Source: Candidatus Omnitrophota bacterium
GTDB lineage: Bacteria > Omnitrophota > Gorgyraeia > S143-82
NCBI GenBank assembly: GCA_015494585.1
Contig: WGAY01000046.1
Coordinates: 1-60,325 of the forward strand
Direction: 5' to 3'
Length of the DNA: 60,325 bases
Positions 7,521 through 59,599 of the stretch are shown piece after piece. How positions within the stretch are numbered: the stretch's first letter is position 1; each line of letters starts with the position of its first letter. The notes below the pieces were generated by a model. That model made no database searches. It was not told the DNA's origin and saw only the letters and a list, made by a program, of their open reading frames with translations. Position numbers and translations under genes: made by a program.

Positions 7521-7571
7521 AAGTATATATGCCCTTATAGAATATTCCAAGTAAGAGAAGATAAAATTTAT

Positions 7572-41699: not shown

Positions 41700-43508
41700 C
41701 TATTCAACCGTCACTGACTTCGCAAGGTTTCTCGGCTGGTCGACATCGCATCCCCTTGCAACAGCAACGTAATAAGCAAACAACTGTAACGGTATTATAT
41801 TCAGAATAGGAGAAAAGACTTCATTAATCTTTGGCAAGTAGATTACCTCCTTAAACTCCTGCCCTATATGAGAGTTTCCAGAAGTTGCCAAGATTATTAT
41901 CTTTCCCTTGCGTGCCTTTATCTCCTCTATATTCGAGTACATCTTTTCGTATACAAACGAATCTGTTGCTATACAGACTACCGCACGATATTCGTCTATA
42001 AGTGCAATTGGGCCATGCTTCATCTCACCTGCAGGATAACCTTCGGCAGGTATATAAGAGATCTCCTTCAATTTAAGGGCCCCTTCCAAGGCAGTGGGAT
42101 AATCCAGGTTCCTTCCAAGATAGAGGAATGAACCAAAGTGATGGTGATGATGGGCCAGACGCTGCAACTCATTTTTCTGCTCAATAACCTGATTCACAGC
42201 CGAATAAATATCAGACATATCGGCAATATAGCTATCTATACCTTTCCCTCTCTTCTGGGCAAGGAAAAAGGCAAGCAAATACATTATCACAAGCTGTGCA
42301 GTATAGGCCTTAGTAGAGGCAACACTTATCTCTATCCCGGCGTGGGTGAGTATCACTGCATCTGCCGCACGAGTAAGAGAAGAACCCACCACATTACAAA
42401 CCGCAAGTACCTTTACTCCTTCTTTTCTAAATTTCTCCACAGCGGCAAGGGTATCGGCCGTCTCACCAGACTGGCTTATCGCAATGCAAAGGGCCTCATC
42501 CTCTACGACGATATCCCTATACCTCCACTCACTTGCCACATCCACCTCAACCGGGATTCCCGCAAAGCGCTCTATCACATACTTCCCAACCAGACCAGCA
42601 TGATAGGCCGTCCCACAACCAACAATGTATATCTTCTTCAAACCCGACACATCCATATGAGACAACTCAGGAAAGACCACATCACTGCCCCTTATATGGA
42701 GTTTGTACAGCTTATTTATCACACCAGGCTGCTCGTGTATTTCTTTCAACATAAAGTGGGGATGGCCGCACCTCTGTGCCTGGGATATATCCCAATCAAT
42801 CTCACTGATCTCAACAGCTTTCTCTCGAGAACCATTCTCTATACGAATAGAAGGCGCAACTCCACTAACATCTACAACATCCCCGTCGTCAAGGTAGACG
42901 ACCTTCTTAGTAAACATCAATATAGGAGTAATATCGCTGGCAAATATAACCTTATCATCGGCAATACCCATTACTAGAGGCGAACCCTTTCGAGCCGCAA
43001 CTATACGATTATTTTCATCTTTAGTTACCACTGCCAAGGCATATGCTCCTTCCAGAACCTTTACTGTTTCCTTTAACGCCTTGTATATATCGCCTTTATA
43101 GTTTTCCTCCAATAGGTGGGCAATGACCTCTGTGTCTGTCTCTGATACAAATTTGTGGCCTCTATCGATAAGCCCTTGCTTTAATTCCAGATAATTTTCT
43201 ATTATACCGTTGTGTACTACGGCAATGCTGTTGCTGCAATCCGTATGGGGATGGGAATTCCTATCACTCGGCTCACCATGAGTTGCCCATCTGGTATGGC
43301 CTATCCCGACCATAGCGGAAAGGTCCCTGCGGCCCACCAGCCTCTGCAGCCCCTTTATCTTACCTTTCTTCTTAAATAAAACTAGTTTATCATCCTTTAG
43401 CACACAGATGCCCGCTGAATCATAGCCCCTGTATTCCAACAGACTCAATCCATCGATGAGTTCCTTTGCCTTATCTCCAGTTCCTAGTATGCCAACTATT
43501 CCGCACAT
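41700..43508 (-). CDS. glmS: Glutamine--fructose-6-phosphate aminotransferase
   Basis: First step of hexosamine synthesis: fructose-6-P plus glutamine to glucosamine-6-P. It is 602 aa. N-terminal amidotransferase with Cys after the start Met (MCGIVGILG), GHTRWATHGEPSDRNSHPH, and two SIS isomerase domains (VGCGTAYHAGL, ISQSGETADTLAA, ASTKAYTAQL), ending in QPRNLAKSVTVE. The start overlaps the end of the GH94-like gene by 13 nt. No glmS ribozyme is evident: the upstream region is coding. Confidence 0.97.
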   Translation of the reverse strand: MCGIVGILGTGDKAKELIDGLSLLEYRGYDSAGICVLKDDKLVLFKKKGKIKGLQRLVGRRDLSAMVGIGHTRWATHGEPSDRNSHPHTDCSNSIAVVHNGIIENYLELKQGLIDRGHKFVSETDTEVIAHLLEENYKGDIYKALKETVKVLEGAYALAVVTKDENNRIVAARKGSPLVMGIADDKVIFASDITPILMFTKKVVYLDDGDVVDVSGVAPSIRIENGSREKAVEISEIDWDISQAQRCGHPHFMLKEIHEQPGVINKLYKLHIRGSDVVFPELSHMDVSGLKKIYIVGCGTAYHAGLVGKYVIERFAGIPVEVDVASEWRYRDIVVEDEALCIAISQSGETADTLAAVEKFRKEGVKVLAVCNVVGSSLTRAADAVILTHAGIEISVASTKAYTAQLVIMYLLAFFLAQKRGKGIDSYIADMSDIYSAVNQVIEQKNELQRLAHHHHHFGSFLYLGRNLDYPTALEGALKLKEISYIPAEGYPAGEMKHGPIALIDEYRAVVCIATDSFVYEKMYSNIEEIKARKGKIIILATSGNSHIGQEFKEVIYLPKINEVFSPILNIIPLQLFAYYVAVARGCDVDQPRNLAKSVTVE

Positions 43509-46135
43509 TCAAGTACTACCTCTACAGTTACACGCTTCCTACCTTTTACCATAGTCTCAAATTCCCTACGTCTTATAACCAGCCTGTCAGAACCGCCGGG
43601 TATTCTATTGCTCCCGATCTTTACATAACTTATAACGTACTGACCCCAGTCAAGGCCGTCTTTATTTTTTATCCTTATGCGTGTCTTTTTGCCAAGCAAA
43701 AGACAATCGATCTCAATGGTATCCCCATTATGAAAGAATTCCCTGCTTAATCTGGGTTCAAAGACGATATCTCCCAAATCCGAGGCTACCCCCAATACAT
43801 ACCTGTATATTGTTAGGATATACCAACTGGCCGAGCCAGTAAGATAGGAATACATACCCCGTCCCTCATTATTATAATACTCAGAGAGGCAGGGAAAACT
43901 ACGCGACTTCTCAAAGTCCATAGCCAGCTTATACAGGCTCAGAAGGGCCTTTTCGGCCTCTTTAACCAACCCCTGTCTAAACAAGGCATTGGCATACATC
44001 ACCACCATATGCGAAAATATCGCTCCATTCTCCTTCTCTCCAAAGGCAAAGGCAAAGGCCCTACCCAGTTCAGGATAGATATCCCCAAAATCCGTATTAA
44101 GTCTATAGCCCTTTACCTCTTTGTCGAATAAAAATTTATCAACGGATAAAGATATCTCTTTTGCCAGGGCCTTATCTGCTGTCCCTTTCATCAGTGCAAA
44201 GACCTGACCCGTCAGAGTTGCCCTGACTAGACCATCGTTTACCCCGCAAACCCTGCGCCCGAGATTATCGTAATAACCATTAAATAAACGATGTCCTTCT
44301 ATCTCTATCAGTTCCTTTTTCAACAGATGCTTGCGCATATCCTGTGCCTTTTTCCGCAAGATATCCGCCAATTGCCTCGTATCAACACTCATCTGTTCAC
44401 CAGATACACCCCTTGACTGCACTGCCTCAAAGTAACTACTTAATAGCCTACGCTTCTCAGACACAGAAGAAGGCAGTTCCAAAAGATATGCCATCTCTCG
44501 CAACAAGGCCACCTCTCTGACCTCATCTGATATACGCTCCAGCAACTCGGCTATCTCAAGGAGATTTCCGGCATAAAAGTGGGTAAAGGCAACACTCTCA
44601 CCCCTCTCCCTTGCCATATCCAGACCATCGTTCCAATCGGCATCCTCGAGCAGGATATTGCCATTATCGCCCACATTAAAGACCTGGACCAGATGTTGGA
44701 GAAGGATGTGCTCAAGTATAGTCCCCTTATAAACCTCATTATTAGCCGTCTTAAATACAGTCTCACCGTTCCAATTATAATCATACCTGCGAGCGCGAAA
44801 TATCTGAGCATCTCGAAAATACGTAGCCCTCTCAAAAAGAATCCGCCAGTCCCCTGTTTGATCGATATAAAGCCTTGTGGTCTCCCATGGCCATACTCCA
44901 TGGTCCATCCATACTCGGGTTATTTTATTTCTATCAGCTATGAACTCTCCCTTTCCTTTACCTATAATCGTTGCGTTGGATCCATCTATCCTGACGCCAT
45001 TGAAATTATTCAATATATCCTGGCGAGCCTCTTCGGGATTACGTAAGAGAAGGCCTAATAAATCCTGCCACAGATCACGCCATCCTCGTCCCCCTCGACC
45101 ATAGTCGAAATCAGGGAGAAAAGAACAACCATATATCTTCCTTAAATATGGCTGGATGCCCACCCATACAAGCCAGTTAGAGAAATCAGAATCTGGAAAA
45201 CGGAACCTCAACGTATTGATATAATCTATCCAGATCCTCTTGCTCCGTCTTAAGGCTGCCTCAGGCTTCATCCGTCTAATAAAACGAGAAAACCCCTCCT
45301 CTTCTCCATCCTTCCCAATAAACAAGGCTACTGCAAACTCAACAACATCGCCCTTTTTGAGGGTTACCTCTGGCAATACCAGCCCTGCAACGACCTCTTT
45401 CCCCTGTACATTGCTGTTATTGGCCTTGGCACTCAACAAACCAACTGGATTGAGCATATCCCCACTACCCACGACATCATCATAGCTGGCAAACACCTCC
45501 TTAAGTCGTCTATCAGCGAATGCACAATAAACAACATCATTTATCCTGTGGCCCCTTTCATCAAAGGACATCGTAGGTCTAACAACTAGTCCATTCGAAA
45601 AAAGCCTCACTCTATTTAATAACGAGGTTACGTGCCTATGGTCCCTTATATTATCGGCTGACCTGGCATAGACAGGAGCAACAAAAATAGGATTAAACCC
45701 TAGAGATTTGCGAGCAAGGCTTTTCATCTTTACCCAAAAGATCTGGGCACTTATCCTATAATCGACAAAAGAAGTAACGCTGCCCGTCAGCCCAAGCTCA
45801 ACACTATCAAAGAACACCGTAAACCATCCTACACCTGCTTCAACTCGCAATTTTACAGGCCAGAGATGATTCAGATGGGTAGAAGACTTGCCCACAACAG
45901 AATAAAGTCCCTTGGGAAACCTCAACCAGATATTAACCGAGGTCTTATCGTTGGTAAGATTTATACGAGAGACAGGCGGAAGAAAAAAATGTTCCTGATC
46001 AATCTTTAGATCGCCGTCCAAGAACGGGGTTATACTCGCCATTAACTCCTGATTGCAGAGGGGGAAATATGCATCCCTGACCAGCGGCTCCTCTGCAACA
46101 AACGAACCGTAAGGATCGATAAACCTGCAGTCCAT
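43496..46135 (-). CDS. GH94-family (cellobiose-phosphorylase-like) glycoside phosphorylase
   Basis: An 879-aa protein. The N-terminal third is a beta-sandwich with FFLPPVSRINL; the central alpha-barrel holds GRGGRGWRDLWQDLLGLLLRNPE, WPWETTRLYIDQTGDWRIL and the catalytic-Asp block LEDADWNDGLDMA; the C-terminal region has GRGMYSYLTGSASWYILTIYRYVLGV and a final beta-sandwich (TIEIDCLLLGKKT). This is the GH94 pattern of enzymes that phosphorolyse cellobiose, cellodextrin, chitobiose or cyclic beta-glucan. The substrate cannot be decided; the location between rplY and glmS makes an N-acetylglucosamine-containing substrate attractive, but this is inference. ATG at 46135 has AGGAGA upstream. Confidence 0.85.
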   Translation of the reverse strand: MDCRFIDPYGSFVAEEPLVRDAYFPLCNQELMASITPFLDGDLKIDQEHFFLPPVSRINLTNDKTSVNIWLRFPKGLYSVVGKSSTHLNHLWPVKLRVEAGVGWFTVFFDSVELGLTGSVTSFVDYRISAQIFWVKMKSLARKSLGFNPIFVAPVYARSADNIRDHRHVTSLLNRVRLFSNGLVVRPTMSFDERGHRINDVVYCAFADRRLKEVFASYDDVVGSGDMLNPVGLLSAKANNSNVQGKEVVAGLVLPEVTLKKGDVVEFAVALFIGKDGEEEGFSRFIRRMKPEAALRRSKRIWIDYINTLRFRFPDSDFSNWLVWVGIQPYLRKIYGCSFLPDFDYGRGGRGWRDLWQDLLGLLLRNPEEARQDILNNFNGVRIDGSNATIIGKGKGEFIADRNKITRVWMDHGVWPWETTRLYIDQTGDWRILFERATYFRDAQIFRARRYDYNWNGETVFKTANNEVYKGTILEHILLQHLVQVFNVGDNGNILLEDADWNDGLDMARERGESVAFTHFYAGNLLEIAELLERISDEVREVALLREMAYLLELPSSVSEKRRLLSSYFEAVQSRGVSGEQMSVDTRQLADILRKKAQDMRKHLLKKELIEIEGHRLFNGYYDNLGRRVCGVNDGLVRATLTGQVFALMKGTADKALAKEISLSVDKFLFDKEVKGYRLNTDFGDIYPELGRAFAFAFGEKENGAIFSHMVVMYANALFRQGLVKEAEKALLSLYKLAMDFEKSRSFPCLSEYYNNEGRGMYSYLTGSASWYILTIYRYVLGVASDLGDIVFEPRLSREFFHNGDTIEIDCLLLGKKTRIRIKNKDGLDWGQYVISYVKIGSNRIPGGSDRLVIRRREFETMVKGRKRVTVEVVLECAE

Positions 46136-46182
46136 ACAAATACCTATCTCCTATGTACATTTTATTTTTATCTTATACGGAT

Positions 46183-46839
46183 TTATTCAGATTCCTTCTT
46201 CACACCCTTCTCTATAACCTCTGGTTCCTGAGATTCGGCTTGTTCAGCAGATTCCCCTTCTGCTTGACCACCTCCTGCATATTCGACCAAAAATACAGCA
46301 GTATCGCCTGCCTCTAATATCCGTACCCCCTCTGGCGGTTTTATATCTGAGACATGGACAGAATCCCCTATATCAAGGCCAGAGACATCAACGACTATTG
46401 CATCCGGGATATTAGTAGGCAGACATTCTATATCTATCTCCCAAACCATATGCTCGAGAACCCCGCCCTTCTTCACACCAACCGGCTCACCCTTTGCCTT
46501 CACTGGCACCCTGACATGCACGGCCTCGGTCATAGAAATCTGATGGAAATCCACATGGTTTATCCTATCCATAACCGGATCATGAGATATCTCCTGAATA
46601 ATTACCGTATAGTCTTTATTACCATCTTCGGACTCTATTGTCATATCGATTATCGTATTCTCCCAATGGTGATGATGGAGAAACTTTACGAATTCAGGAT
46701 AAGGAAACATCACAGGAACAGCACCCTCTATATCCTTTCCATAAACTACCCCAGGGATAAAGCCCTCCTCTCTCAATTTATTTAAATACCCCTTTGTCTT
46801 TATAGGTCTTTGTTTTACACTCATCTTAACTCTATCCAT
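46183..46839 (-). CDS. rplY: 50S ribosomal protein bL25, long (CTC) form
   Basis: Binds 5S rRNA; the long form carries an extra C-terminal domain (general stress protein CTC). It is 218 aa. N-terminal L25 core: KTKGYLNKLREEGFIPGVVYG and EISHDPVMDRINHVDFHQI; the C-terminal beta domain follows, with GGVLEHMVWEIDIECLPTNIPDAIVVDVSGLDIGDSVHV, and an acidic tail rich in Glu. ATG at 46839 has a GGAGG site. The glmU-prs-rplY order is a common bacterial arrangement. Confidence 0.95.
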   Translation of the reverse strand: MDRVKMSVKQRPIKTKGYLNKLREEGFIPGVVYGKDIEGAVPVMFPYPEFVKFLHHHHWENTIIDMTIESEDGNKDYTVIIQEISHDPVMDRINHVDFHQISMTEAVHVRVPVKAKGEPVGVKKGGVLEHMVWEIDIECLPTNIPDAIVVDVSGLDIGDSVHVSDIKPPEGVRILEAGDTAVFLVEYAGGGQAEGESAEQAESQEPEVIEKGVKKESE

Positions 46840-46851
46840 TACTATACCTCC

Positions 46852-47790
46852 TTATCTAGCTACTTGATCAAATAGACAACTAATAGAAACCTCCCAGTGA
46901 ATACGCTTTATCGCCTCAGCAAATAGAGGAGCAACCGATATTACCTCTATTTTATCTTCAGGAGCATGGGGAATACTATCGCTTATAAACAGTCGCTTGA
47001 TTTCAGAGTTTGCCAATTTCTTCACAGCATCGCCTGCCAGTACACCATGGGTTATCATCGCATAAATGTCCTTTGCTCCGGCCTTCTTCAGTGCAGCCGC
47101 TGCCTCTATCAAAGATCCCCCAGTGGCGATTATGTCATCTATTATCACAAGATTTCTCCCCTTAACCTCACCCAATATATTCATTGCCTCGGCCTTATCC
47201 GCATCCACCCGCCGTTTATCCACAATCGCAAGCCCTGCACCCATCTTCTTGGCATAGGCCCTTGCCATCTTTATACCACCGACATCCGGCGAAACGATCG
47301 TCAAGTCAGGGATATTCATCTCCTTTAAAAAGCTTATAAACACATTTATTGCGTAAAGATTGTCCACTGGAATATCAAAAAATCCCTGTATCTGGCCGGC
47401 ATGCAAATCCATAGTCAGAACCCTATCCGCACCAGCGACCGTCAACAGATTGGCAACCAATTTGGCAGTAATCGGGACGCGCGGCTGGTCTTTGCGGTCC
47501 TGCCTTGCATACCCGTAATAGGGCATTACCGCTGTTATTCGCTTGGCCGATGCCCTCTTCAAGGCATCTATCATTATAAGTAACTCCATAAGGTTATCAT
47601 TGGTAGGCGGACAGGTGGGCTGTATCACAAAGACATCCTTACCCCTGACGTTTTCATTTATCTTTACCCTTACCTCTCCATCGCTAAATCTGGTAACCAA
47701 AGCATCACCTAGAGGAATACCAAGGTGATTACAGATATCCTCTGCTAGTCGTTTATGGGCATTTCCCGCAAAAACAGACAGCTTATCCAT
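46852..47790 (-). CDS. prs: Ribose-phosphate pyrophosphokinase
   Basis: Makes PRPP from ribose 5-phosphate and ATP for nucleotide, histidine and tryptophan synthesis. It is 312 aa. Motifs: FSDGEVRVKINENVRGKDVFVIQP, YYGYARQDRKDQPR (flexible loop), TMDLHAGQIQGFF, and the PRPP-binding VIIDDIIATGGSLIEAA. Start ATG follows the glmU stop directly (TAGATG) with AGGAG just before it inside glmU. Confidence 0.97.
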   Translation of the reverse strand: MDKLSVFAGNAHKRLAEDICNHLGIPLGDALVTRFSDGEVRVKINENVRGKDVFVIQPTCPPTNDNLMELLIMIDALKRASAKRITAVMPYYGYARQDRKDQPRVPITAKLVANLLTVAGADRVLTMDLHAGQIQGFFDIPVDNLYAINVFISFLKEMNIPDLTIVSPDVGGIKMARAYAKKMGAGLAIVDKRRVDADKAEAMNILGEVKGRNLVIIDDIIATGGSLIEAAAALKKAGAKDIYAMITHGVLAGDAVKKLANSEIKRLFISDSIPHAPEDKIEVISVAPLFAEAIKRIHWEVSISCLFDQVAR

Positions 47791-49059
47791 CTACCTACTC
47801 CTATTTTTAGAGAGACTCCTGGCCGGAACACCTACGACAACATCACCGTTAGCGACATCGTGATGCCTCGTAACCACTGCCCCAGCACCGACCACGGCCC
47901 GATCTCCAACCTTTACTGGCGCAACGAGAATAGCCCCGCTGCCAATAAACGAATGCCTTCCAATCTTCGTCTTATGCTTTTGCCTTCCGTCATAGTTCGC
48001 CGTAATCGTTCCGGCACCTATATTTGTTTCATCTCCAACCGACGTATCTCCCAGATAAGTAAGATGTTTTACATATACACTATTTTTCAAATTAGACCTG
48101 TTTATCTCTACGAAATTCCCAACAATGGAATTGTCACCTATCTGTGTGCCACTCCTCAAATGGGCAAAGGGGCCTATCTGACAACCCTTGCCAATTCTAA
48201 CATCTTTTCTAATCACCGTAAACGGCATAATCTCAGTATCCCTGCCAATTCTGACACCCTCCTCTATCCAGACGGTCTCAGGCATATGGACTGTAACTCC
48301 GGAATCCATATGCGACTCTATAATGCGCATACGAGCAATCTCCTCTGCCAGGGCCAGGTCCTGACGCGAATTTATCCCCAGGGCCTCATCTTCATCTGCC
48401 CAGACCACCGAAAGGCCCATCTGACGATCGTAAAGATAAGAGACAATGTCCGTAAGATAGTACTCGCCTTGTCGATTGTCCTTTCTCAACCCAGCTAAGG
48501 CCTTTTTTAACTTTTCTCTAAACACACAATAGGCACCTGTGTTTATAAACGGTATATCTTGGCCCTGCATATCACTATATTCAACCACCTTCTCGGCCAA
48601 ACCATCCTTATCTACCCACAATCTACCATACGAACCAGGATCTTCAGCAAACGCTCCGAGAATAGCCCCGGTCTTATTCTTGTCCGCAGAAGATATCAAG
48701 GCCTTTATACTCTCTCTCAAGATAAGTGGCATATCCCCGCACAAAACAAGGGTCAAATCTGCCTTTAAGGCCTTCATCGCCGCCTTGACTGCCCCACCCG
48801 TACCATTTAAGACTCGCTGGTGGACAAACTCTGCCTCATATCCATTATATACAACTGCCCTGCGCACCTTATCAGCACCATAGCCAAGGACAATAACAAC
48901 CCTATCCACCAGACCATCTATCGCATCCAGTACCCAGAACAGGGCAGGTTTACCCAGGACAGGATGCAGGACCTTGGGCAGATCAGACTTAATACGCTTA
49001 CCCTTGCCTGCGGCCAGAATCACCGCATCTACAGATGTCTTCTTTCGCCTTTTCCCCAT
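47791..49059 (-). CDS. glmU: Bifunctional UDP-GlcNAc pyrophosphorylase / glucosamine-1-P acetyltransferase
   Basis: Makes UDP-GlcNAc, the precursor of peptidoglycan and lipopolysaccharide. It is 422 aa. N-terminal uridylyltransferase: DAVILAAGKGKRIKSDLPKVLHPVLGK and VLCGDMPLI. The left-handed beta-helix acetyltransferase domain covers about residues 250-415, with DTEIMPFTVIRKDVRIGKGCQIGPF, VGNFVEINRSNLKNSVYVKHLTYLGD and ANYDGRQKHKT. Somewhat shorter than the 455-aa norm. Its own promoter lies at 49120-49147; GlmS, the first enzyme of the pathway, is encoded at the other end of the same group. Confidence 0.95.
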   Translation of the reverse strand: MGKRRKKTSVDAVILAAGKGKRIKSDLPKVLHPVLGKPALFWVLDAIDGLVDRVVIVLGYGADKVRRAVVYNGYEAEFVHQRVLNGTGGAVKAAMKALKADLTLVLCGDMPLILRESIKALISSADKNKTGAILGAFAEDPGSYGRLWVDKDGLAEKVVEYSDMQGQDIPFINTGAYCVFREKLKKALAGLRKDNRQGEYYLTDIVSYLYDRQMGLSVVWADEDEALGINSRQDLALAEEIARMRIIESHMDSGVTVHMPETVWIEEGVRIGRDTEIMPFTVIRKDVRIGKGCQIGPFAHLRSGTQIGDNSIVGNFVEINRSNLKNSVYVKHLTYLGDTSVGDETNIGAGTITANYDGRQKHKTKIGRHSFIGSGAILVAPVKVGDRAVVGAGAVVTRHHDVANGDVVVGVPARSLSKNRSR

Positions 49060-49119
49060 AATTTTAAAATCAATTGCCTACCCACAAACCTACAACAGAC
49101 TGTGGCAAATAAGTTTGCA

Positions 49120-49147
49120 ATTATACTACAAAAATCACGGCTATCAA
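49120..49147 (-). promoter_or_regulatory. Promoter of glmU-prs-rplY and probably the GH94-glmS pair
   Basis: TTGATA (49142-49147), 16-bp spacer and consensus TATAAT (49120-49125) on the minus strand, leaving a leader of about 60 nt before the glmU ATG. The dispersed repeat begins 32 bp further upstream. Confidence 0.65.
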
Positions 49148-49178
49148 ATCAAATAATTAACGATATATCTTTATCCCG

Positions 49179-49549
49179 GATTATGCATTAGAATTCTTTA
49201 CCTTCCAGCGATTGTTAATCAAACATCTCTTTCCTCATCCAAAAATAACTCAAAGCTAAAATCTCAAAGGTCAAATCCACAGCTTAACACCTTAAATCTT
49301 TTTATTCTATCCTTTATTTCTCTTCTCTTCATCGTCAGCTGAGCTGCCAATTCTTGCACTCCGATTTTGCCTCCCTTAACTCCGCTTTCTCTATATCCCA
49401 TGTTAAAAATAGTTTTGAGCTTTAAGTTGTGGTTTTTAGTTTTAACTTTTGAGTTTTTAGTTTAACCACATGGTGAATTCTTATTTTTAGCTTTTCCTAT
49501 TGTCCCACAACGAGTTCCATTATATTGCAAATTCCTAATTTGGGTTAAT
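49179..49549. repeat. Dispersed repeat, copy A (about 371 bp)
   Basis: Near-identical to 55456-55833. It begins with GATTATGCATTA and ends with TTTGGGTTAA. Internally there is a conserved central block (CGTCAGCTGAGCTGCC and onward to CTCCGATTTTGCC) flanked by two imperfect inverted arms, at about 49246-49300 and 49406-49466 (AACTCAAAGCTAAAATCTC against GAGTTTTTAGTTT-type). On the minus strand, 49264-49401 is a 45-codon frame starting ATG and encoding IGVQELAAQL then KRREIKDRIKRFK, resembling a winged-helix-type segment but without ribosome-binding site. No transposase. It lies between murF and glmU. It fits a foldback or MITE-like non-autonomous element. Confidence 0.8.
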
Positions 49550-49552
49550 TTA

Positions 49553-50734
49553 TTAGATAGAACAAAACACATCTATAAGCCCCTTAAAATCCATAGCATT
49601 AGATGCCTTAAAAAATAAATAATGCCTATCCCTTAAAAATTCTAGTATCTCCTCCTCTTTCCTATGCCAATTCTCCAGTAATAGGCCGTCCACAGACTCA
49701 TATTTGGCCGCATCAACCATATGCCTGCCGACAAATACAAAACCTGCCTTTGGGAATAAATATCTGGCGTAAGCAACCACATCCCTATGATAGGAAGCAA
49801 CCCCTTCTCCCAGCTCCAGCATATCTCCCAGGACAATCCCAATATCAGAGGAATAGCTACCATAAAGATTGGAAAACATAGACAGAGAGGCCTTCATCGA
49901 GCCTGGATTTGCATTGTAGGCGTCATCTATTATAACCCTATCTCCCAGCCTTATCGTCTCAAATCGCCTCTTGGGAAAGGAAAATGACTCCCAATCTACA
50001 GCAGAAAAATCCAAGGAAAGATAGGAAAAGAGCGCCTTCAGCATCCCAAACATATCCCTAAGGTGCTCTGCATCATAGGGAAACCCATAAGGAACCGCTG
50101 CCTGCGCAGTGAAGGATATCTTCGGCCTTGAGGCCTCTTTGAACGACCAGAAGAACCTTATCGGCGCGTAACAGACATCCGCATATTTCGCTATAGCAAA
50201 CTTCTCCCTTACCAGGCCATCCATATCCTTCAAGCCCTCAAGGTGTGACGGATATAAACTGGTAATAAAAGCAATGGAAGGCCTTGCTATGTCAGCCAAA
50301 TAGCCAATATCACCTGGCCTATTCGTGCCGAGCTCAAGGATCCAGAAATCCGCTGAAAGGTTCGCTGAAAGGACAGAAAGGGGCAGACCTATCGCATTGT
50401 TAAAGTTTCCCCTGGAGACACCTGCCTCCTTTCCAACTGCAGACAATGCAAAGGAAAGCATAGCCTTAAATGTAGTCTTACCCGCACTGCCAGTAATACC
50501 GATTACCCTGCCTTTGAACTCGGCCCTCTTCTTACTGGCCTCCTGCCCCAGAAAGGCAATCGTATCCTCAACAACGACAATCCTATCATCCCTTTTCCCC
50601 TCATAAGAGCGCGGAACCACGCACATAAGCGCGCCCCTCTTCAGGGCATCCTGGACAAAGTTTACCCCTCCCCTTATTGCTACAAAGGTATCTCCTGGTT
50701 CTATCTGGCGAGAGTCTATCTTGATGGAGCCCAT
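49553..50734 (-). CDS. murF: UDP-N-acetylmuramoyl-tripeptide--D-alanyl-D-alanine ligase, N-terminally short
   Basis: Cytoplasmic Mur ligase adding D-Ala-D-Ala to the stem peptide. It is 393 aa. It begins directly at the family block IDSRQIEPGDTFVAIRGG, so roughly 20 N-terminal residues present in most MurF are absent. Central ATP site: VIGITGSAGKTTFKAMLSFAL, with FNNAIGLPLSVL, ELGTNRPGDIGYLADIARP and the later IDDAYNANPGSMKASLSMF. The start ATG at 50734 follows GAGGA and overlaps murE by 19 nt. The stop is next to the repeat copy A. Confidence 0.92.
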   Translation of the reverse strand: MGSIKIDSRQIEPGDTFVAIRGGVNFVQDALKRGALMCVVPRSYEGKRDDRIVVVEDTIAFLGQEASKKRAEFKGRVIGITGSAGKTTFKAMLSFALSAVGKEAGVSRGNFNNAIGLPLSVLSANLSADFWILELGTNRPGDIGYLADIARPSIAFITSLYPSHLEGLKDMDGLVREKFAIAKYADVCYAPIRFFWSFKEASRPKISFTAQAAVPYGFPYDAEHLRDMFGMLKALFSYLSLDFSAVDWESFSFPKRRFETIRLGDRVIIDDAYNANPGSMKASLSMFSNLYGSYSSDIGIVLGDMLELGEGVASYHRDVVAYARYLFPKAGFVFVGRHMVDAAKYESVDGLLLENWHRKEEEILEFLRDRHYLFFKASNAMDFKGLIDVFCSI

Positions 50735-52149
50735 TCCTCAACTACCCTTTTATCAGAAAAATATATCTTCTCACTGCCGATTATCTGATAGTCCTCGTGT
50801 CCCTTACCTGCAATCACAACCACATCTCCTTCACCCGCCATATCAAGTGCGCTGTATATAGCCCTGTGTCTATCTACCTCTATAACATAGTTGGCCCTCT
50901 CAGAGAAACCAGCTATAATATCGTCTATAATTCTCTCTGGATCTTCCGTCCTGGGATTGTCGCTGGTAACCACGGCAAAGTCAGAAAACATCTCCACTGC
51001 CTCTGCCATAAGCGACCGCTTTGCCCGGTCCCTATCCCCACCTGCCCCAAACACGCATATAATTTTTCTAAACACACCCATCATCCGCAAGGAACCAAGA
51101 AGGTGTTTAAGCCCATCAGGGGTATGTGCATAATCTATCACCACTGTCCTGCCATCCACCTTCAGCACCTCCATCCTGCCAGGTACCCCTGGAAAAGAGG
51201 ACATAAATCCCGCCAGCCTATCTATATCATAGCCAAGCGATGCAACCGACAAGACTGCCTGAACCGCGTTATAGATATTGTGTATCCCTAACATAGGCAG
51301 AAAACACTGATGCCTTTTCTTGTCAAATGAAAAGGCAAAGTTTACCCCATCTTCTCGAAACTCAATATCCGAAACAACACATTCTCCGCCTTCTCCCACA
51401 CCTATGCAATGCACTCTTCGCCTTAGCTGAGCATATAAACTGCGACCATACTCATCATCTACATTTATTATAGCGGCTCCTTCATCCTTTAAATGGGAGA
51501 CAAACAATAATCTCTTTGCCGAGAAATAATCATCCATATCCGCGTGATAATCCAGATGGTCCTGAGAAAGGTTCGTAAATACCGCCCTGTCGAACATAAA
51601 ATCGCCCAGACGCCCTTGGGAAAGTGCATGAGAAGAGACCTCCATCACCAGATGTCTTATCCCCTGCCTCTGTCCTTCTCTTAATAATATAAGAAAATCT
51701 TCAATACCAGGGGTAGTAGTACCAGAGGAGACCTTCCTGCCACCAATGCGGTAATTTATTGTACCTGCTATAATAGAATCAATCCCTAGTCTGGAAAGCA
51801 AAAACTCTATCATATAAGAAACCGTTGTTTTACCATTCGTTCCGGTTATCCCTATAGAGACAAAAGAATCCAGATCCAAGCCATAAAACGAGGAGAACAG
51901 CTCCCAGAACAGGGCCTTGGTATCCTTGACCCGGAACACAGCCACTCCTTCGACGGCACTGGAAAAGCCAAAGCCTTCCTCCACTACTAGGGCCCTTGCC
52001 CCTGCCCTAACAGCATCTTGGATAAAACTATGACCGTCTAAAGAGAACCCTTTTATGGCGACAAAACAATATCCATATCTGATGCGCCTGGAGTCAGAAG
52101 TAACACCTGAGATCCCAAGATCGAGTATATCCTTGATAACAGCATTCAT
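50716..52149 (-). CDS. murE: UDP-MurNAc-L-Ala-D-Glu:meso-diaminopimelate ligase
   Basis: Adds the third stem residue. It is 477 aa. N-terminal TSDSRRIRYGYCFVAIKGFSLDGHSFIQDAV; ATP loop GITGTNGKTTVSYMIEFLL; GTTTPG, YHADMDDYFSAKRLLF, DYAHTPDGLKHLL, and the specificity motif TSDNPRTEDPERII. DNPR indicates meso-diaminopimelate, not lysine, so the wall is probably of A1-gamma type. It overlaps murF and follows rlmD by 37 nt. Confidence 0.95.
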   Translation of the reverse strand: MNAVIKDILDLGISGVTSDSRRIRYGYCFVAIKGFSLDGHSFIQDAVRAGARALVVEEGFGFSSAVEGVAVFRVKDTKALFWELFSSFYGLDLDSFVSIGITGTNGKTTVSYMIEFLLSRLGIDSIIAGTINYRIGGRKVSSGTTTPGIEDFLILLREGQRQGIRHLVMEVSSHALSQGRLGDFMFDRAVFTNLSQDHLDYHADMDDYFSAKRLLFVSHLKDEGAAIINVDDEYGRSLYAQLRRRVHCIGVGEGGECVVSDIEFREDGVNFAFSFDKKRHQCFLPMLGIHNIYNAVQAVLSVASLGYDIDRLAGFMSSFPGVPGRMEVLKVDGRTVVIDYAHTPDGLKHLLGSLRMMGVFRKIICVFGAGGDRDRAKRSLMAEAVEMFSDFAVVTSDNPRTEDPERIIDDIIAGFSERANYVIEVDRHRAIYSALDMAGEGDVVVIAGKGHEDYQIIGSEKIYFSDKRVVEEWAPSR

Positions 52150-52186
52150 AAGCTCTTATCTCTTCAAAAATAGGACATCAAAGGCG

Positions 52187-53449
52187 CTATCGCCTCTTCC
52201 GCCTCCTCATAACCGTCATTGTCTCAATATGGCCAGTATTCGGGAAAAAGTCGAGGAAGTATACCTTCTCTATTTTATAAACCTCCTTTAATTCCAGCAA
52301 ATCTCTCCTTAACGTCATTGGGTCACAGGAGACATAAAACAGATTCCTTATCTTCCCATTCTTGCGCAAAAATTCCCTGACTGATCTGGAGAGCCCCTTT
52401 CTCGGAGGATCTACTATCACAGTATCTATTCTAGCGCGCATACGCCTGTCCTCAAAGATCTCCCAGGCAACCGAACCAGCAGAACCCAGCTTAAAAGAGA
52501 AATTGCCAAAGGTATTATATTCACTATTCACATCCAACGCCTTCTTGCAGATAGGGGCCTGCTCAACTCCGTAGACCCATCGAACCATATCAGACAGCGA
52601 CAGGCCCAACAAGCCCACTCCGCAGAATAAATCCAGTACAACCCTTGCATCAATCCGCATAGTCTCCTGCCTCAACAAGGACACAAGCCTTTCTGCCATC
52701 TCAGTATTTACCTGGAAAAAACCATCTCCATAGTAGCGGAAACGCCTGCCCGAAACCTCTTCCTCCAGCCAATCCCTCCCAACAAGCGGACGAACTGAAA
52801 GCCCTTTAATCCGCACCACACCCGCAAACCCAAGATCAGAAAATACGCTGACATCATCGCCGGACAATTCTCCATCACCTTTTACATATAGAATAAGCAA
52901 TACCTCACCATTCCTATTTACCCGAAACCCAATCCTTTCCAAGCTCATAGGCCCTTTCTCTTGCATCCGTCTTCTAACCAAGGCAAATTTTTCATTTATC
53001 TCCTTCCTGAGCAGTGCGCAGGACTCTACGTCAACAGTATTCCCCAATGCATCCCTATACCCAAATCTATTTTCATCCCAATCAATGTGAAAGACCGCCT
53101 TGTTGCGATAGTGAAAGATGGTGTTGGCTGGTTCAGAGAATATCTTCTGAGAATAAATACCCTTCAAGATTCCCGCAAGCTGGCGCAACTTCAATCTCAC
53201 CTGATAGGGATAATCGATCACCTGATAACCCGAACAAATGCGATAATGCAAGCACCTAGGATTAGTCCTATGGGAAGAAGGCCGAATTACGCGCAATAAT
53301 CTGGCCTCATCATAACTCTTGTGACGATGTATAAGCTCTGCCTCTATCAGCTCTCCATCTATCCCTTCGTCTACAAATACGGCTTTGCCTGAATCATCCT
53401 TGCAGAGGGCCTTACCCGGATATACAACATCCTTTACTATTAATTCCAT
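52187..53449 (-). CDS. rlmD: 23S rRNA (uracil-5-)-methyltransferase, RlmD/RumA-like
   Basis: TrmA-family SAM-dependent methyltransferase. It is 420 aa. N-terminal TRAM-like domain (VVYPGKALCKDDSGKAVFVDEG), the usual Fe-S region PRCLHYRICSGYQVIDYPYQ, SAM motif LDLFCGVGLLGLSL, IVDPPRKGLS and the catalytic-Cys YVSCDPMTLRRDL. In RlmD the Fe-S ligands are C-x5-C-x2-C and a later Cys; here the third ligand is Tyr75, so the cluster may be missing or altered. It lies between obg and murE. The exact target base (U1939, U747 or tRNA U54) is uncertain. Confidence 0.85.
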   Translation of the reverse strand: MELIVKDVVYPGKALCKDDSGKAVFVDEGIDGELIEAELIHRHKSYDEARLLRVIRPSSHRTNPRCLHYRICSGYQVIDYPYQVRLKLRQLAGILKGIYSQKIFSEPANTIFHYRNKAVFHIDWDENRFGYRDALGNTVDVESCALLRKEINEKFALVRRRMQEKGPMSLERIGFRVNRNGEVLLILYVKGDGELSGDDVSVFSDLGFAGVVRIKGLSVRPLVGRDWLEEEVSGRRFRYYGDGFFQVNTEMAERLVSLLRQETMRIDARVVLDLFCGVGLLGLSLSDMVRWVYGVEQAPICKKALDVNSEYNTFGNFSFKLGSAGSVAWEIFEDRRMRARIDTVIVDPPRKGLSRSVREFLRKNGKIRNLFYVSCDPMTLRRDLLELKEVYKIEKVYFLDFFPNTGHIETMTVMRRRKRR

Positions 53450-53464
53450 AACAAACCTTTGCTC

Positions 53465-54424
53465 TTACTCTTCCAACCTATTCCTTATCTCATCAATCAG
53501 TTTATCAATGCCCTCCCCAGTCCTGGCTGAGATTAAGACAGGGCGTTGATTGGTGCGGGCAATAAATTCATCGACAATACTATAATCCTCCAGCAGATCT
53601 ATTTTATTGAGGACCACAATCTGGGACTTCTCAAGAATAGAAGGATTGTATCTCCTCATCTCCTCTAGCAGTATAACATAGGCATCCCAGGCAGCTATCT
53701 CAGTCATCGGAGAGGCATCTATCAGATACACGAGTATTCTGGCCCTCTCTATGTGCCGCAGAAACTTATCTCCTAATCCCTTACCTTTATGTGCCCCCTC
53801 TATTATCCCCGGCATATCCGCAATTACCACATCCAAGTCTGCAAGCATCCCCAATACTGGATTTTTGGTAGTAAATGGATAGGCCCCAACAACCGAACCC
53901 GCACCAGTAAGGGCATTAAGCAGCGTAGACTTACCAGAGCTGGGCAGGCCAACTATACCAACATCTGCCAAGACCTTCAGTTCCAGATTAAGCTGGCGTT
54001 CCTGACCCTCACCAGGAGGCACAACAGAGTGATCCCTGGTATAGGCACTGCCAATCCCTCCTTTACCGCCACGGGCCACAACCACCTTCATCCCAGGGCT
54101 AGAAAGGTCCTTTAAGAGTTTGCCCGTAAGTGCATCCCTTACAAGAGTACCAACAGGGACGCGAATAATTAGATCCTCTGCATTCGCCCCATGCCTTTTA
54201 TTACTGCTTCCATGCTTTCCGTTATCTGCCTTAAAATGCTGTCTGAAGTGCAAGTGTCTGAGGGTATTTATAGAGGGATCGGCCTGAATAACAACATCCC
54301 CGCCCTTTCCACCGCATCCCCCATCAAAGCGGGGATAACGCATGTATTTATTCTTATACTTGCTGGGGCAGCCCCTGCCGCCATCGCCAGCCTTTACCCA
54401 TATTCGTACTTGGTCTATTGCCAT
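53465..54424 (-). CDS. obg: GTPase Obg/CgtA
   Basis: Essential GTPase of 50S assembly and stringent signalling. It is 319 aa. N-terminal glycine-rich OBG fold with GDGGRGCPSKYKNK and FDGGCGGKGGDVV; G domain with GLPSSGKSTLLNALTGAG, AYPFTTKNP, DMPGII and LNKIDL; the C-terminal OCT domain is absent, so the protein ends just after the SARTGEGIDKL motif. The start ATG overlaps the rpmA stop (TGATG). Part of the standard rplU-rpmA-obg block. Confidence 0.96.
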   Translation of the reverse strand: MAIDQVRIWVKAGDGGRGCPSKYKNKYMRYPRFDGGCGGKGGDVVIQADPSINTLRHLHFRQHFKADNGKHGSSNKRHGANAEDLIIRVPVGTLVRDALTGKLLKDLSSPGMKVVVARGGKGGIGSAYTRDHSVVPPGEGQERQLNLELKVLADVGIVGLPSSGKSTLLNALTGAGSVVGAYPFTTKNPVLGMLADLDVVIADMPGIIEGAHKGKGLGDKFLRHIERARILVYLIDASPMTEIAAWDAYVILLEEMRRYNPSILEKSQIVVLNKIDLLEDYSIVDEFIARTNQRPVLISARTGEGIDKLIDEIRNRLEE

Positions 54425-54669
54425 CAGGCAAGAGGCTCAACGGCTACAAGGCCAGGCTTTGGGAAAGAGACAACCCCATCTATCAGGGCAAAGAGGGTAT
54501 AATCCCCTCCCATACCTACATTCCTGCCGGGCTTAAACTTCGTTCCCCTCTGTCGGACTATTATCGTACCAGCCTTCACATACTGGCCACCGAATCTTTT
54601 TACTCCAAGAAATTTTGCCCTGGAATCGCGGCCATTTTTGGTACTACCCATTCCTTTCTTATGAGCCAT
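54424..54669 (-). CDS. rpmA: 50S ribosomal protein bL27
   Basis: Located at the peptidyl-transferase centre of the 50S subunit. It is 81 aa: [28 protein letters not shown], then [32 protein letters not shown]. The N-terminus is mature (no long extension cleaved as in Firmicutes). The gap upstream to rplU is 137 nt and contains a long imperfect inverted repeat. Confidence 0.97.
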
Positions 54670-54710
54670 AACTCACACCCCTTTCACCTTTATTTTTATT
54701 AAGAACGAAG

Positions 54711-54785
54711 AAGAAAGCATGGAGAATGAAGGGATTATTTTTCATAAAATATCTTAAGCTTCCCTCCTCATCCTTCATGCTTTTT
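54711..54785. repeat. Imperfect inverted repeat between rplU and rpmA
   Basis: AAAGCATGGAGAATGAAGGGA (54714-54734, as two adjoining halves) pairs with the reverse complement of TCCCTCCTCATCCTTCATGC at 54761-54785, with a spacer of 26 nt. It is inside the rplU-rpmA interval. On the minus strand it would form a large hairpin in the transcript, a possible mRNA-processing or differential-expression site. It is not recognised as a known element. Confidence 0.5.
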
Positions 54786-54806
54786 AACACTTTTTATTGC
54801 ACAACT

Positions 54807-55118
54807 TCATTTAGAAATCTTATTTATCTTCACTCTAGAAAGCCTCTGTCTGTGCCCATTTTTTACACGATATTTATGCCTTCGCCTGTATTTAAATACG
54901 ATTACCTTCTTACCTTTTCTCTGTTCCTCCAGAGTCGCCTTTACTTCCATCCCTTCTATATAAGGGCTACCTACATGTATCTTCTGTCCATCTGAATACA
55001 GCAACACCTTATCAAAGATAACAAGGGAACCCTCTTCCCCATCTATTTTCTCCACATCCAGCACACTGCCTTCCTCTACCTTATATTGCTTTCCACCCCA
55101 TTCCACAACCGCATACAT
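54807..55118 (-). CDS. rplU: 50S ribosomal protein bL21
   Basis: Component of the 50S subunit binding 23S rRNA. It is 103 aa: MYAVVEWGGKQYKVEEGSVL, then VGSPYIEGMEVKATL, FKYRRRHKYRVKNGHRQRLSRVKINKI. ATG at 55118 is preceded by AAGGAGG. A small hairpin and a strong promoter lie upstream. First gene of the rplU-rpmA-obg-rlmD-murE-murF group. Confidence 0.97.
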   Translation of the reverse strand: MYAVVEWGGKQYKVEEGSVLDVEKIDGEEGSLVIFDKVLLYSDGQKIHVGSPYIEGMEVKATLEEQRKGKKVIVFKYRRRHKYRVKNGHRQRLSRVKINKISK

Positions 55119-55135
55119 AATAAAACCTCCTTAAA

Positions 55136-55162
55136 TATCCATTTATATATAGAGCATGGATA
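55136..55162 (-). other. Small hairpin just upstream of the rplU ribosome-binding site
   Basis: TATCCAT pairs with ATGGATA across a 13-nt loop; in the mRNA it ends about 3 nt before the AAGGAGG of rplU. It could modulate L21 translation. This is weak, from pairing alone, with an AT-rich stem. Confidence 0.4.
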
Positions 55163-55230
55163 ATAAAAATCTCTTCCTACCTTATCCTCAATTTTTAAAA
55201 CCTTCTCTTAATCTTAAACTTAATTTTAGA

Positions 55231-55259
55231 ATTGTAAACAATTCCTAGAGAATCGTCAA
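55231..55259 (-). promoter_or_regulatory. Promoter of rplU-rpmA-obg operon
   Basis: TTGACG (55254-55259), 17-bp spacer and TACAAT (55231-55236) on the minus strand, between tRNA-Arg(TCT) and rplU. The leader before rplU is about 105 nt. Confidence 0.7.
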
Positions 55260-55276
55260 GGACTAAATTAATAATA

Positions 55277-55350
55277 CGTCCCCGGAGGGATTCGAACCCC
55301 CGACACGCGGCTTAGAAGGCCGCTGCTCTATCCTACTGAGCTACGGGGAC
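55277..55350 (-). tRNA. tRNA-Arg(TCT)
   Basis: Minus strand. Acceptor GTCCCCG pairs with CGGGGAC, discriminator G, anticodon stem GCGGC/GCCGC around CTTCTAA giving anticodon TCT, T arm CGGGGGTTCGAATCCCTCC. CCA is not encoded. It lies 10 nt after tRNA-Pro, same strand, so the pair is probably one transcript. Confidence 0.95.
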
Positions 55351-55360
55351 ATAATCAAAA

Positions 55361-55436
55361 TCGGGGAGGTGGGATTCGAACCCACGACCCCCTGCTCCCA
55401 AAGCAGGTACTCTAAACCAAACTGAGCCACTCCCCG
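55361..55436 (-). tRNA. tRNA-Pro(TGG)
   Basis: Minus strand. Acceptor CGGGGAG pairs with CTCCCCG (C at position 1, as usual for bacterial tRNA-Pro), discriminator A, anticodon stem CCTGC/GCAGG around TTTGGGA giving anticodon TGG, T arm GTGGGTTCGAATCCCAC. CCA is not encoded. It is the 5' member of the tRNA-Pro/tRNA-Arg pair; repeat copy B starts 20 bp upstream. Confidence 0.95.
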
Positions 55437-55455
55437 ATAAACAGAAATAAACCCA

Positions 55456-55833
55456 GATTATGCATTATTATGCATGAGAATTCTTTATCTTCCATCGCCC
55501 TGTTAATCAAACCTCTCTTTCCTAATCCAAATATAACTCAAATCTAAAATCTCAAAAGTCAAATCCACAGCTTAAAACCTTAAATCTCTTTATTTTATCC
55601 TTTCTTTTCTCTTCATCGTCAGCTGAGCTGCCAATTCTTGCACTCCGATTTTGCCTTCCTTAACTCCGCTTTTTCTGTATCCCATGTTAAAAATAGTTTT
55701 GAGCTTTAAGTTGTGGTTTTTAGTTTTGACTTTTGAGTTTTTAGTTTAACCGCATGGTGAATTCTTATTTTTAGCTTTTCCTATTGTCCTACATCATCAT
55801 ATTTTAATTCCCTATTGTACAATTTGGGTTAAA
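55456..55833. repeat. Dispersed repeat, copy B (about 378 bp)
   Basis: Highly similar to copy A over its whole length, especially from the central CGTCAGCTGAGCTGCC block to TTTTTAGCTTTTCCTATTGTCC. Copy B has a duplicated ATGCATTATT-type unit at its low-coordinate end. Inverted arms lie at about 55534-55590 and 55691-55748. The mini frame at 55590-55685 (minus strand) is 31 codons, cut short relative to copy A's 45 by small indels. It sits between tRNA-Pro and the pilX-like gene. The conserved sequence versus flanking divergence suggests recent spread or gene conversion. Confidence 0.8.
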
Positions 55834-55903
55834 TAATTACACCAAGCCTATAAAGGGTAACAAAGACTTACATCTGTTGTCAATAACCTTTTTTACTCAT
55901 ACC

Positions 55904-58900
55904 CTAATAAGGGTGCTTATTATACATCGTCGGATCCTTCTCCACAAAATAGGCAGAGAGACCAACGTAAGACAGGTCTCCAGGTGGAAGTCCATTAGAA
56001 TAATCGTGTGCCGCATAGGTCAGAGGGGGGTTGGCATTAATAGAACCACTAAATACAGTCTTATTATAATCATATGACCATCTGTTCCAGTCTCTATACT
56101 GTTTCGAAACAACATGGGGGAACATCCCTTCTATGCGCACAGAGGCAGGATTGCTATATTCATCATCTCCTCCAAACCATGACCAGTTCTCTATATATCT
56201 TATTGTATCCCCCCTATATTCCCCACTAACAATAGCGGCATTAATTACGACTTGACGATTATCTGCATCATCTTTAACCGCCACCATTGCAGGGACTAAT
56301 CCATAATCGGTCTGCCATTCATATTCATCAGGCTCTATCTTTCCATCCCCATCTAAATCCACTGGAACCTTCGTTGCAGTCAAAGGATTTCGAGAAACTT
56401 TAAAATAATAGTTTATCTTGGACTCAAGGTCCTCTACTCTCTCCTTTGAAGGATCGAATTGTTTATCCAGATAGTTTTCAAGTAAACCTTCATCGGGGGC
56501 GCCGTATTTTCTGTCCCGTTCACTTATCTTTGCAGTATAGAATTCCTTTACCGCATCTCTAATGGCCTCCAGTTTCTTGTTATACAATTCTTCTGAATCC
56601 TTATTCGGATCAGGCCAATAACTGGTATTCCTGGGAAGACCCAACTTGGACTTCACATAATCACTCAGATATCTATTCCAACCTCTATAGGGCTTAACTG
56701 GTTCGCCATAGGCAGGCACATATTCTGGGGCCTTAAAGTCCTTTGAAAGGACATATACATCACCATCGGTTACTATTGCTACTGGCTCGTATTGCTGTTC
56801 TTCCTCTCCATATTGATAGTTCAGGTCTCCCTGAATCATCACAGACTGAGGAGTTGCAATAGTAAGCCCTCCTTCTCGTGGAATCTCCTCCCCATTTACG
56901 ATTCGTACGGCTGTATCGTACCAATTATCTTCACCCGGTGGCTTTACGTCTATCCATATCACACCATTTATAGCATCATCTATATTGGGTATATCGTTTT
57001 TAAGTTCCTCTAGGTCGATCGTATATGCCGTAACTCTCCTTTCTCCATTTGTTGCATTTCCAGTGATAAAATTATCCTTGCTCAACCAGTCAGGCAGCTC
57101 GTTCATATTCCTACTATCCTTGTCATAGACCATATGGCCTCTAATATATATGCGAAAATGCTGTCTTCTATCATCACCCCTTTCATAGCCAACCCATATA
57201 CCATCTTCTTTTGCCTGATATGGAAGAGTTGTTCTCAATTCCACTGGCTCAAGAGTAACAGCACCCGTGCTGCCCTCTTTTATCACACCTGTTAGATCAA
57301 CAATACCATTTCTACCATGTTCAAAATCTATATCATCCGGTGTATATTTCCCTTCAATCCAATCCTTAAACCTCTGGGCATGTGGACCAAAGCCAGTATT
57401 TAAGGCATTAAACCCATCATATTCAGGGTATCCAAATTCCGGAAATTCTGCATCTCCTCTATAATAACCATTCTCAATATAATTCCTGAGTTTTTCGGGG
57501 ATATCACTATAATGTCTCTTCCTAAACATACTTGCCCAGAGCTTCTGTTCTTTCGCCACATTATACGTTACTTCATGCGGAATGTAGTCCACTATCACCT
57601 TCTTCTTCAAACCAGGATCGTATTCATATACAGGCTCATTATATATAACATATTTGGTGCTCTCATCCACTGGTATTGTCGCGGTCTTGATGTTGCCAGT
57701 TTCGTCTATATACTTCATCGTAATTGTATCATCTGTGGTCTGCTTTCCATCAAAGACCTCAGCTACTTCAGCATTCGCTGGATTAGAAGTAAATTCCCAT
57801 ACAATATTTCCCTGTTTATCTATCTTTACAGAACCATCCTCATTTCTAGCCTTTCTAAACAGGCGCACATATCTAACTGGCTTCTCTCCTTCTCCTGCCC
57901 CAACTTCATCGTGATCTTTATCTTTATATATATCAAACTTGTAATTTATCGGATCACTTTTGCTACTCCCAAAGATCAACACTGGTGTCCTGACAGTTAC
58001 AGAACTATTACCGCCTAAGTCCAATTTATCGCCCATCACACTTTGGTCAAAGTGGAAATCAGCATATCCCCAGGCACGCTTTGCTCCCCTACCAATAAGG
58101 GATGAAGGCCACCACCTTTGCCATCTATCTGTCCCATTTCCAGGCCTCAAAGAACTTTCACCAGAAACATGACTGTAATAATATCCTCCAGAACGATACC
58201 CTCTATAAAATTCATCGTTTATCATAGGGAAATAGCCAAGGCCATCCAACTGAGCGTCGTTTTTAGATAAACCATTTGCCTGGGCATTGTAGAGCCAGTA
58301 ATCCCCCTCATAAGGTGGATACTTATTATCAGTTACCACGTATATTCTACCTGCTGAATTTGTACTTAACATTGGGACATTAACAAAACGTGTATGACCC
58401 GCAAATCTTATATCTCCATTCACATATATACTACCTATTCCTTTACCATCAAAGGTAATATTCCCAAAAGTATGTCCTCTATTATAAAAATGGAAAAATT
58501 CAAGCAAACTGCCATAGACCATACTGGCCCTGACAACCCTTACAATTCCATTAACCTGAGCCAGAGAAACAGCCCAGATAGTATCATTCTCATCTTTATA
58601 CACACGCACCCTGACCCTATCATCACCTAATGGAAGATAATCTCCATTTTCATCTATCATGGCCCCCTTTATCTTGGGGTTGTGCGGTCCGGGCAAACGC
58701 ACCAAAGACTCACCATCCACCCCAATCTCATGCGTAAACCAATCTGACCCCTGTTCTCTCATCTCTGCATAGGCCAGTGCAAGACCTTCCTCAGCCAGGT
58801 ACAGCGCATCTTCAGCAGATTCTACAGTATCCGTAAACTTCTTCTGGGATATATTCATCTGAAACAACAAAGCACCTGCAAAGACTGCCACAACAAGGAG

Positions 58901-58954: not shown

Positions 58955-58976
58955 AATACACCTCCCAGATTTAACC

Positions 58977-59588: not shown

Positions 59589-59599
59589 AATCCATCCTC

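Follow-up and report, generated by a model that had tools for sequence, protein, structure and literature searches.

REP sequences span a few tens of bp, are tied to a REP-associated tyrosine transposase (RAYT) and lack target duplications of the kind described below. The repeat family reported here, of which two copies lie in a 60,325-nucleotide stretch of an Omnitrophota genome (the window), resembles REP and REPIN sequences in being intergenic, palindromic and present in many copies, but its elements are 200–450 bp long, with IS1380-type ends and 5-bp duplications, so that the REP-type label proposed as one option in an earlier note on this DNA has to be dropped. ERIC and Correia (NEMIS) elements are also intergenic and MITE-like, with promoter-like ends in Correia and an orientation-dependent effect on mRNA stability in ERIC (PMC2229807); their ends and sizes are different, and any effect of the present family on RNA would be conjectural. 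BOX elements of Streptococcus pneumoniae (PMC3049150) share with it a modular composite structure, variable length, IS-like ends and an intergenic location; the two have no sequence relation, and BOX varies in the number of boxB modules, whereas here unrelated cores are swapped. MITEPye1 of Paracoccus yeei, a MITE with IS1182-type ends related to a resident IS (PMC11578231), is likewise short, non-autonomous, mostly intergenic and foldable, with terminal inverted repeats (TIRs) and target duplications, but it belongs with another IS family, and the present family has a far higher copy number, interchangeable cores and a strong orientation bias. Finally, IS of the IS1380 family (IS1247, ISEcp1 and relatives; NF033539/PF13701) include two elements from the same class, L082 and L083, with nearly identical ends, and a 5-bp duplication is common to both sides, as known for IS1247, an IS1380 element captured in the laboratory (PMC3281130). 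The present elements differ from these IS in having no transposase gene, in their length (81–460 bp vs. ~1.4 kb) and in having no autonomous partner in their own genome.

Overall, it is highly probable that both sequences in the window are members of a MITE family whose ends are of IS1380 type and whose mobility is supplied in trans by a transposase of that type. The kind is already known and the family itself appears to be new: within the literature covered, which is partial, neither IS1380-type MITEs nor any MITEs in Omnitrophota are reported.

Two copies in the window

The two copies are 88% identical over ~370 bp (BLAST, E 2e-136). Their features are given below, with boundaries taken as CCC...GGG and the strand of a copy defined by the direction of its TATAAT-bearing end.

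49175–49544 (370 bp), minus strand: MITE copy 1, core type T1, boundaries CCCGGATT...AATTTGGG
49170–49174, unstranded: left flank of copy 1, TTTAT, a decayed target-site duplication matching TTAAT at 4 of 5 positions
49175–49193, plus strand: left TIR of copy 1, CCCGGATTATGCATTAGAA, zero mismatches to the family pattern
49244–49301, unstranded: left inner arm of copy 1, 7-bp-type units (AACTCAAAGCTAAAATCTCAAAGGTCAAATCCACAGC...)
49302–49405, unstranded: variable core of copy 1, type T1, with a minus-strand frame (MGYRESGVKGGKIGVQELAAQLTMKRR...) lost in other copies
49410–49466, unstranded: right inner arm of copy 1 (AGTTTTGAGCTTTAAGTTGTGGTTTTTAGTTTTAACTTTTGAGTTTTTAGTTTAACC)
49519–49524, minus strand: TATAAT box of copy 1, promoter-like, in the right end
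49526–49544, minus strand: right TIR of copy 1, 4 mismatches, with an internal deletion of ~7 bp (CCTAATTTGGG for CCTATTGCATAATTTGGG)
49545–49549, unstranded: right flank of copy 1, TTAAT, a decayed target-site duplication
55452–55828 (377 bp), minus strand: MITE copy 2, core type T1, orientation as copy 1
55447–55451, unstranded: left flank of copy 2, ATAAA, a decayed target-site duplication matching TTAAA at 4 of 5 positions
55452–55470, plus strand: left TIR of copy 2, with a 7-bp local duplication (ATTATGCATTATTATGCATGAG)
55810–55828, minus strand: right TIR of copy 2, CCCAAATTGTACAATAGGG
55829–55833, unstranded: right flank of copy 2, TTAAA, a decayed target-site duplication

The earlier note had described two similar copies 6 kb apart at 49179–49549 and 55456–55833, boundaries that need shifting by a few bases, each placed beyond the 3' end of one gene and before the next. 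This placement is borne out: copy 1 is bordered by the 3' end (49553) of a murF-like gene and the 5' start (49059) of a glmU-like gene, both on the minus strand and thus co-directional with the copy; for copy 2, whose neighbours are again all minus-strand genes, the borders are a 1016-aa ORF (3' end 55904) on one side and a pair of tRNA genes plus an rplU-like gene on the other (the names murF-like, glmU-like and rplU-like are a reading of the translations). No transposase is present in or adjoining either copy, again as the earlier note had it. In the sister species G003, contigs stop within glmU and murF at the site of copy 1; at the site of copy 2, element ends stand at both borders, and the tRNA genes are absent from the contigs compared. 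In the surrounding part of the window (43496–60325), every well-supported gene is on the minus strand, with a coding-sequence strand skew of G 28.5% and C 16.2%.

Copy number, target duplications and empty sites

Two copies lying 6 kb apart in one orientation might be expected from a segmental duplication confined to this genome stretch, the outcome that the earlier note had tied to a lack of further copies. However, BLAST yielded 49 matches in the host genome itself (G000; 1.53 Mb, 80 contigs, 94% complete), grouped into ~40 loci (including remnants) on >20 contigs with different flanks. Together with the 5-bp duplications and empty sites described below, these genome-wide copies rule out a segmental duplication, which retains a negligible probability. 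The end pattern WWCCCRRATTATGCAWTAGRA occurs 67 times in this genome at ≤3 mismatches vs. once for a reversed control pattern. At ≤2 mismatches, the other species of the genus contain 173 (G003), 1 (G002) and 0 (G001) ends. Among named genomes a 26-base end pattern was found only in Candidatus Omnitrophota M10_metabat2_scaf2bin.014 (JALVWL01), and the exact pattern was absent from viral contigs. The family makes it possible to trace how a repeat has spread within an uncultured phylum: two sister species hold many copies, and two others no more than one detectable end each. The elements are 81–460 bp long and contain 67% A+T vs. 55% in the coding sequence of the window. Contigs of G003 frequently break at MITE copies, and many short contigs end inside a copy, so the family may partly account for the fragmentation of these MAGs.

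Both ends of the element carry 19-bp terminal inverted repeats, CCCRRATTATGCAWTAGRA (the family end sequence can also be written CCCGGATTATGCATTAG). Perfect 5-bp flanking duplications were observed for 20 of 60 end-bounded copies from G000 and G003 combined vs. 4.7 expected, with a maximum of 12 in 2000 re-pairing shuffles, and for the same 60 copies no comparable signal was obtained at 3, 4, 7, 8 or 9 bp. The duplicated targets are AT-rich (typically ATAAA, ATTAT, ATTAA, TTTAT or TTCAT); most copies, both window copies among them, have imperfect duplications. Two G003 copies have exact empty sites in G000, overlapping by precisely 5 bp, and one of these sites falls within the window:

7561–7565, unstranded: empty site (ATAAA); at L164:1483 of G003, a 282-bp family copy stands between two ATAAA

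The flanks of this site are 88.6% and 91.2% identical between the species; the window reads uninterrupted as ...GAAGATAAA followed by ATTTATT..., whereas with the element in place the sequence runs GAAGATAAA, element, ATAAATTCT. The second site is filled at L154:1114 of G003 and empty in G000 near 2115–2119 of L126. Four sites are occupied in both species with differing contents, and at a further site the G003 counterpart is likewise filled. Empty sites and sites filled in both species therefore show that some insertions predate the species split and others postdate it. The family may still be active at present. The differences in content at common sites suggest internal deletion, conversion or re-insertion at the same place. 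At one common site an 81-bp element in G000 (L136, 7155–7235) is matched by a 306-bp element in G003 (L170, 1697–2002).

These elements are thus short and multicopy, with terminal inverted repeats, a fixed 5-bp duplication, two precise empty sites and no transposase gene of their own, are A+T-rich relative to the host and have ends in common with autonomous elements in other families of the class (see below), which bears out the non-autonomous, MITE-like nature that the earlier note had proposed from the two copies.

Ends matching IS1380-type elements

A class-wide search for the family ends identified a contig (C41 of G022) that starts with AACCCGGATTTTGCAATAGAA; a PF13701 gene follows 32 bases further along. 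This locus (L082) is a complete IS, with perfect 19-bp repeats, AACCCGGATTTTGCAATAG, spaced 1.4 kb from each other. Its 436-aa transposase is assigned to the IS1380 family (NF033539, E 1.4e-78). A second IS1380 element (L083, in G216), with ends CCCGGATTTTGCATTAGG and a 459-aa transposase, is flanked by a 6-bp, not a 5-bp, duplication. Both hosts belong to other families of the same class. Over the first 17 positions, the family ends (CCCGGATTATGCATTAGAA) differ from those of L083 (CCCGGATTTTGCATTAGGA) and L082 (CCCGGATTTTGCAATAGAA) by one or two bases; one end position is T in the related IS and A in the MITE family (GGATTTTGCA vs. GGATTATGCA). Other genomes of the class contain elements of 112–243 bp with the same ends and unrelated interiors, about half of them with perfect 5-bp duplications. 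A separate family of 189–243 bp in G023 (L045, L051, L065, L069) has IS1380-type ends and nested inverted repeats, several of its members being located at contig ends.

A PF13701 search of the two carrier genomes (G000 and G003, both incomplete MAGs) revealed no IS1380 transposase gene, and the end list of G000 contains no inverted end pair 1–2 kb apart; on these grounds an autonomous copy was rejected for both genomes by PF13701 and, for G000, also by end spacing. We therefore infer in trans action by an IS that was lost, is unassembled or was passing. Since the matching ends and the 5-bp duplication are accompanied by no cognate transposase in the same genome, the family is classed as a MITE with IS1380-type ends rather than as an IS1380 element. 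The proposed course of events is that an IS1380-family transposase, supplied by an IS not found in the element's own genome, would recognise the 19-bp ends and move the element, duplicating 5 bp of AT-rich target, mostly in intergenic gaps. The family is modular: inside the shared ends, a pair of imperfect inverted arms made up of 7-bp-type units surrounds exchangeable cores of at least four kinds.

Interior, orientation and related foldbacks

Along the minus strand of the window, an element consists of right end, right arm, core, left arm and left end. The right end carries TGNTATAAT in 26 of 57 copies and TATAAT in 37 of 57. The arms consist of units of the 7-bp type, based on CCACAAC/GTTGTGG; some copies (81 and 162 bp) have IS1380-type ends with almost no arms. 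At least four kinds of core are found interchangeably inside the shared ends:

T1: GTCAGCTGAGC, in both window copies
T2: GTCGGCCAAGC
T3: AATAATCTGCGC
T4: a heptamer foldback of GGAGAAT/GGAGCAT units, dominant in G003 (21 copies)

The long imperfect inverted arms noticed at first reading are real (25 nt with 76% complementarity in copy 1, 23 nt with 91% in copy 2), and they do fold in silico. The large transcript hairpin suggested from them fared less well, as pairing an arm with its own partner gives no better complementarity than pairing it with swapped arms from other copies (24.8 vs. 25.3). The fold check gave a similarly divided answer: for 16 full copies compared with shuffles, the mean z was -4.0 on the reference strand and a weak -1.5 on the gene-sense strand, with -2.0 and +0.5 for copy 1 alone. 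A functional hairpin kept by pairing was therefore rejected, there being no co-variation of the arms. A small protein encoded in the core was rejected as well: the 45-aa frame seen in copy 1 is interrupted in most other copies, no frame is conserved across copies, and there is no NCBIfam match, the only Pfam match being an AsnC-type HTH at E 0.016, below the cut-off. Uncorrelated arms and the lost T1 frame thus leave a conserved hairpin RNA or peptide unsupported. A known RNA family was likewise rejected, as two tRNAs alone reach the Rfam gathering score in 48900–56200.

The copies are strongly co-directional with their neighbouring genes. Gene calls on both sides are available for 50 copies. 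Tandem genes flank 43 of them, and 40 of these follow the gene direction (TATAAT end upstream) vs. 3 opposed; with common sites counted once, the ratio is 37:2 (two-sided binomial p ~3e-9), and in the subset with perfect duplications it is 13:1. The gene calls are longest ORFs, a choice that would weaken such a skew and not produce it. This orientation speaks for the view that the element is a selected cis-acting RNA or regulatory element, in which a hairpin or promoter-like end acts on the downstream genes by processing, stabilising or transcribing them, so that copies are retained and oriented. The TATAAT box, which 37 of 57 copies have in their right end, the better-than-shuffled folding of the reference strand and the orientation-dependent effect of ERIC on mRNA stability (PMC2229807) speak for it too. 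However, the bias is just as strong without the box (16:0 vs. 24:3 with TATAAT), which means that the -10 box is not its cause and eliminates a promoter as its source. The lack of arm co-variation within copies and of any Rfam match, the mere 4–5 sites filled in both species (with differing contents), the two recent insertions with intact empty sites and the fact that two of the genus's four species do without the family further reduce this explanation to an improbable one.

Under the favoured reading of a MITE mobilised in trans, the orientation bias calls for an origin of its own. An asymmetric target was rejected, since the duplicated 5-mers, as read off the duplications, are found in either orientation with respect to the element. 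RNA from the disfavoured orientation would contain more C than G (21% vs. 12%) and have the stronger predicted fold, and a rho gene is present, which together make selection against polar, possibly Rho-terminating insertions plausible. We accordingly prefer, as a plausible cause, the loss of insertions making pyrimidine-rich, strongly folding and possibly Rho-terminated RNA. Removal of wrong-way copies predicts a depletion of tandem contexts, and it is a count against it that these are not depleted: 43 of 50 insertions (86%) vs. 119 of 136 gene pairs (87%; 82% for gaps ≥20 bp). An orientation preference at insertion stands on a par with later loss and is equally open as a cause. That the bias reflects insertion coupled to the direction of transcription or replication, and not later wrong-way loss, seems to us rather unlikely; replication direction is not separable from gene direction in this dataset. 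Were such coupling true, the heptamer foldbacks here and around PF05635 genes (see below) would point to a phylum-wide system settling co-directionally inside operons. Either way, the skew would show the strength of an operon-polarity filter on insertions, or else oriented transposition.

Foldbacks of similar build are also found in related genomes, which raises the alternative that the heptamer foldback itself (arms plus core) is the true mobile unit and the IS1380-type ends a later frame. Similar foldbacks indeed stand alone in G004, G036, G033 and G009 and flank PF05635 ORFs, but in this genus the duplication and both empty sites lie exactly at the IS1380-type ends, the 81- and 162-bp copies keep these ends while nearly lacking arms, and neither G000 nor G003 contains a PF05635 gene, which together make this alternative very unlikely. 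A tie of the T1 core to PF05635 had no support in profile comparison.

PF05635 ORFs (23S rRNA intervening-sequence/four-helix bundle) number 5–7 per genome in G036, G033, G009 and G023 (L206–L229; e.g., L216 at 1440–1900, L226, L227 and L218) and are mostly flanked by inverted arms of 7–8-bp units with copy-specific sequence (AAAACTC, AATAACC, CAAATCC, CAAAAATC, AGTAGGGG and others). Within a copy, such arms match each other (mean score 20.0 vs. 10.4 when re-paired, maximum 14.3 in 5000 re-pairings), and at 19 of 23 ORFs both neighbouring genes run in the ORF direction. A PF05635 ORF with its heptamer arms looks like an undescribed intergenic foldback element. G004 has many heptamer foldbacks and no PF05635 gene. 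Foldbacks of this type without an ORF occupy intergenic gaps in G004, G036, G033 and G009 (L032, L033, L035, L036, L039 and L040, near 1500), and they often begin at or beside the upstream stop codon.
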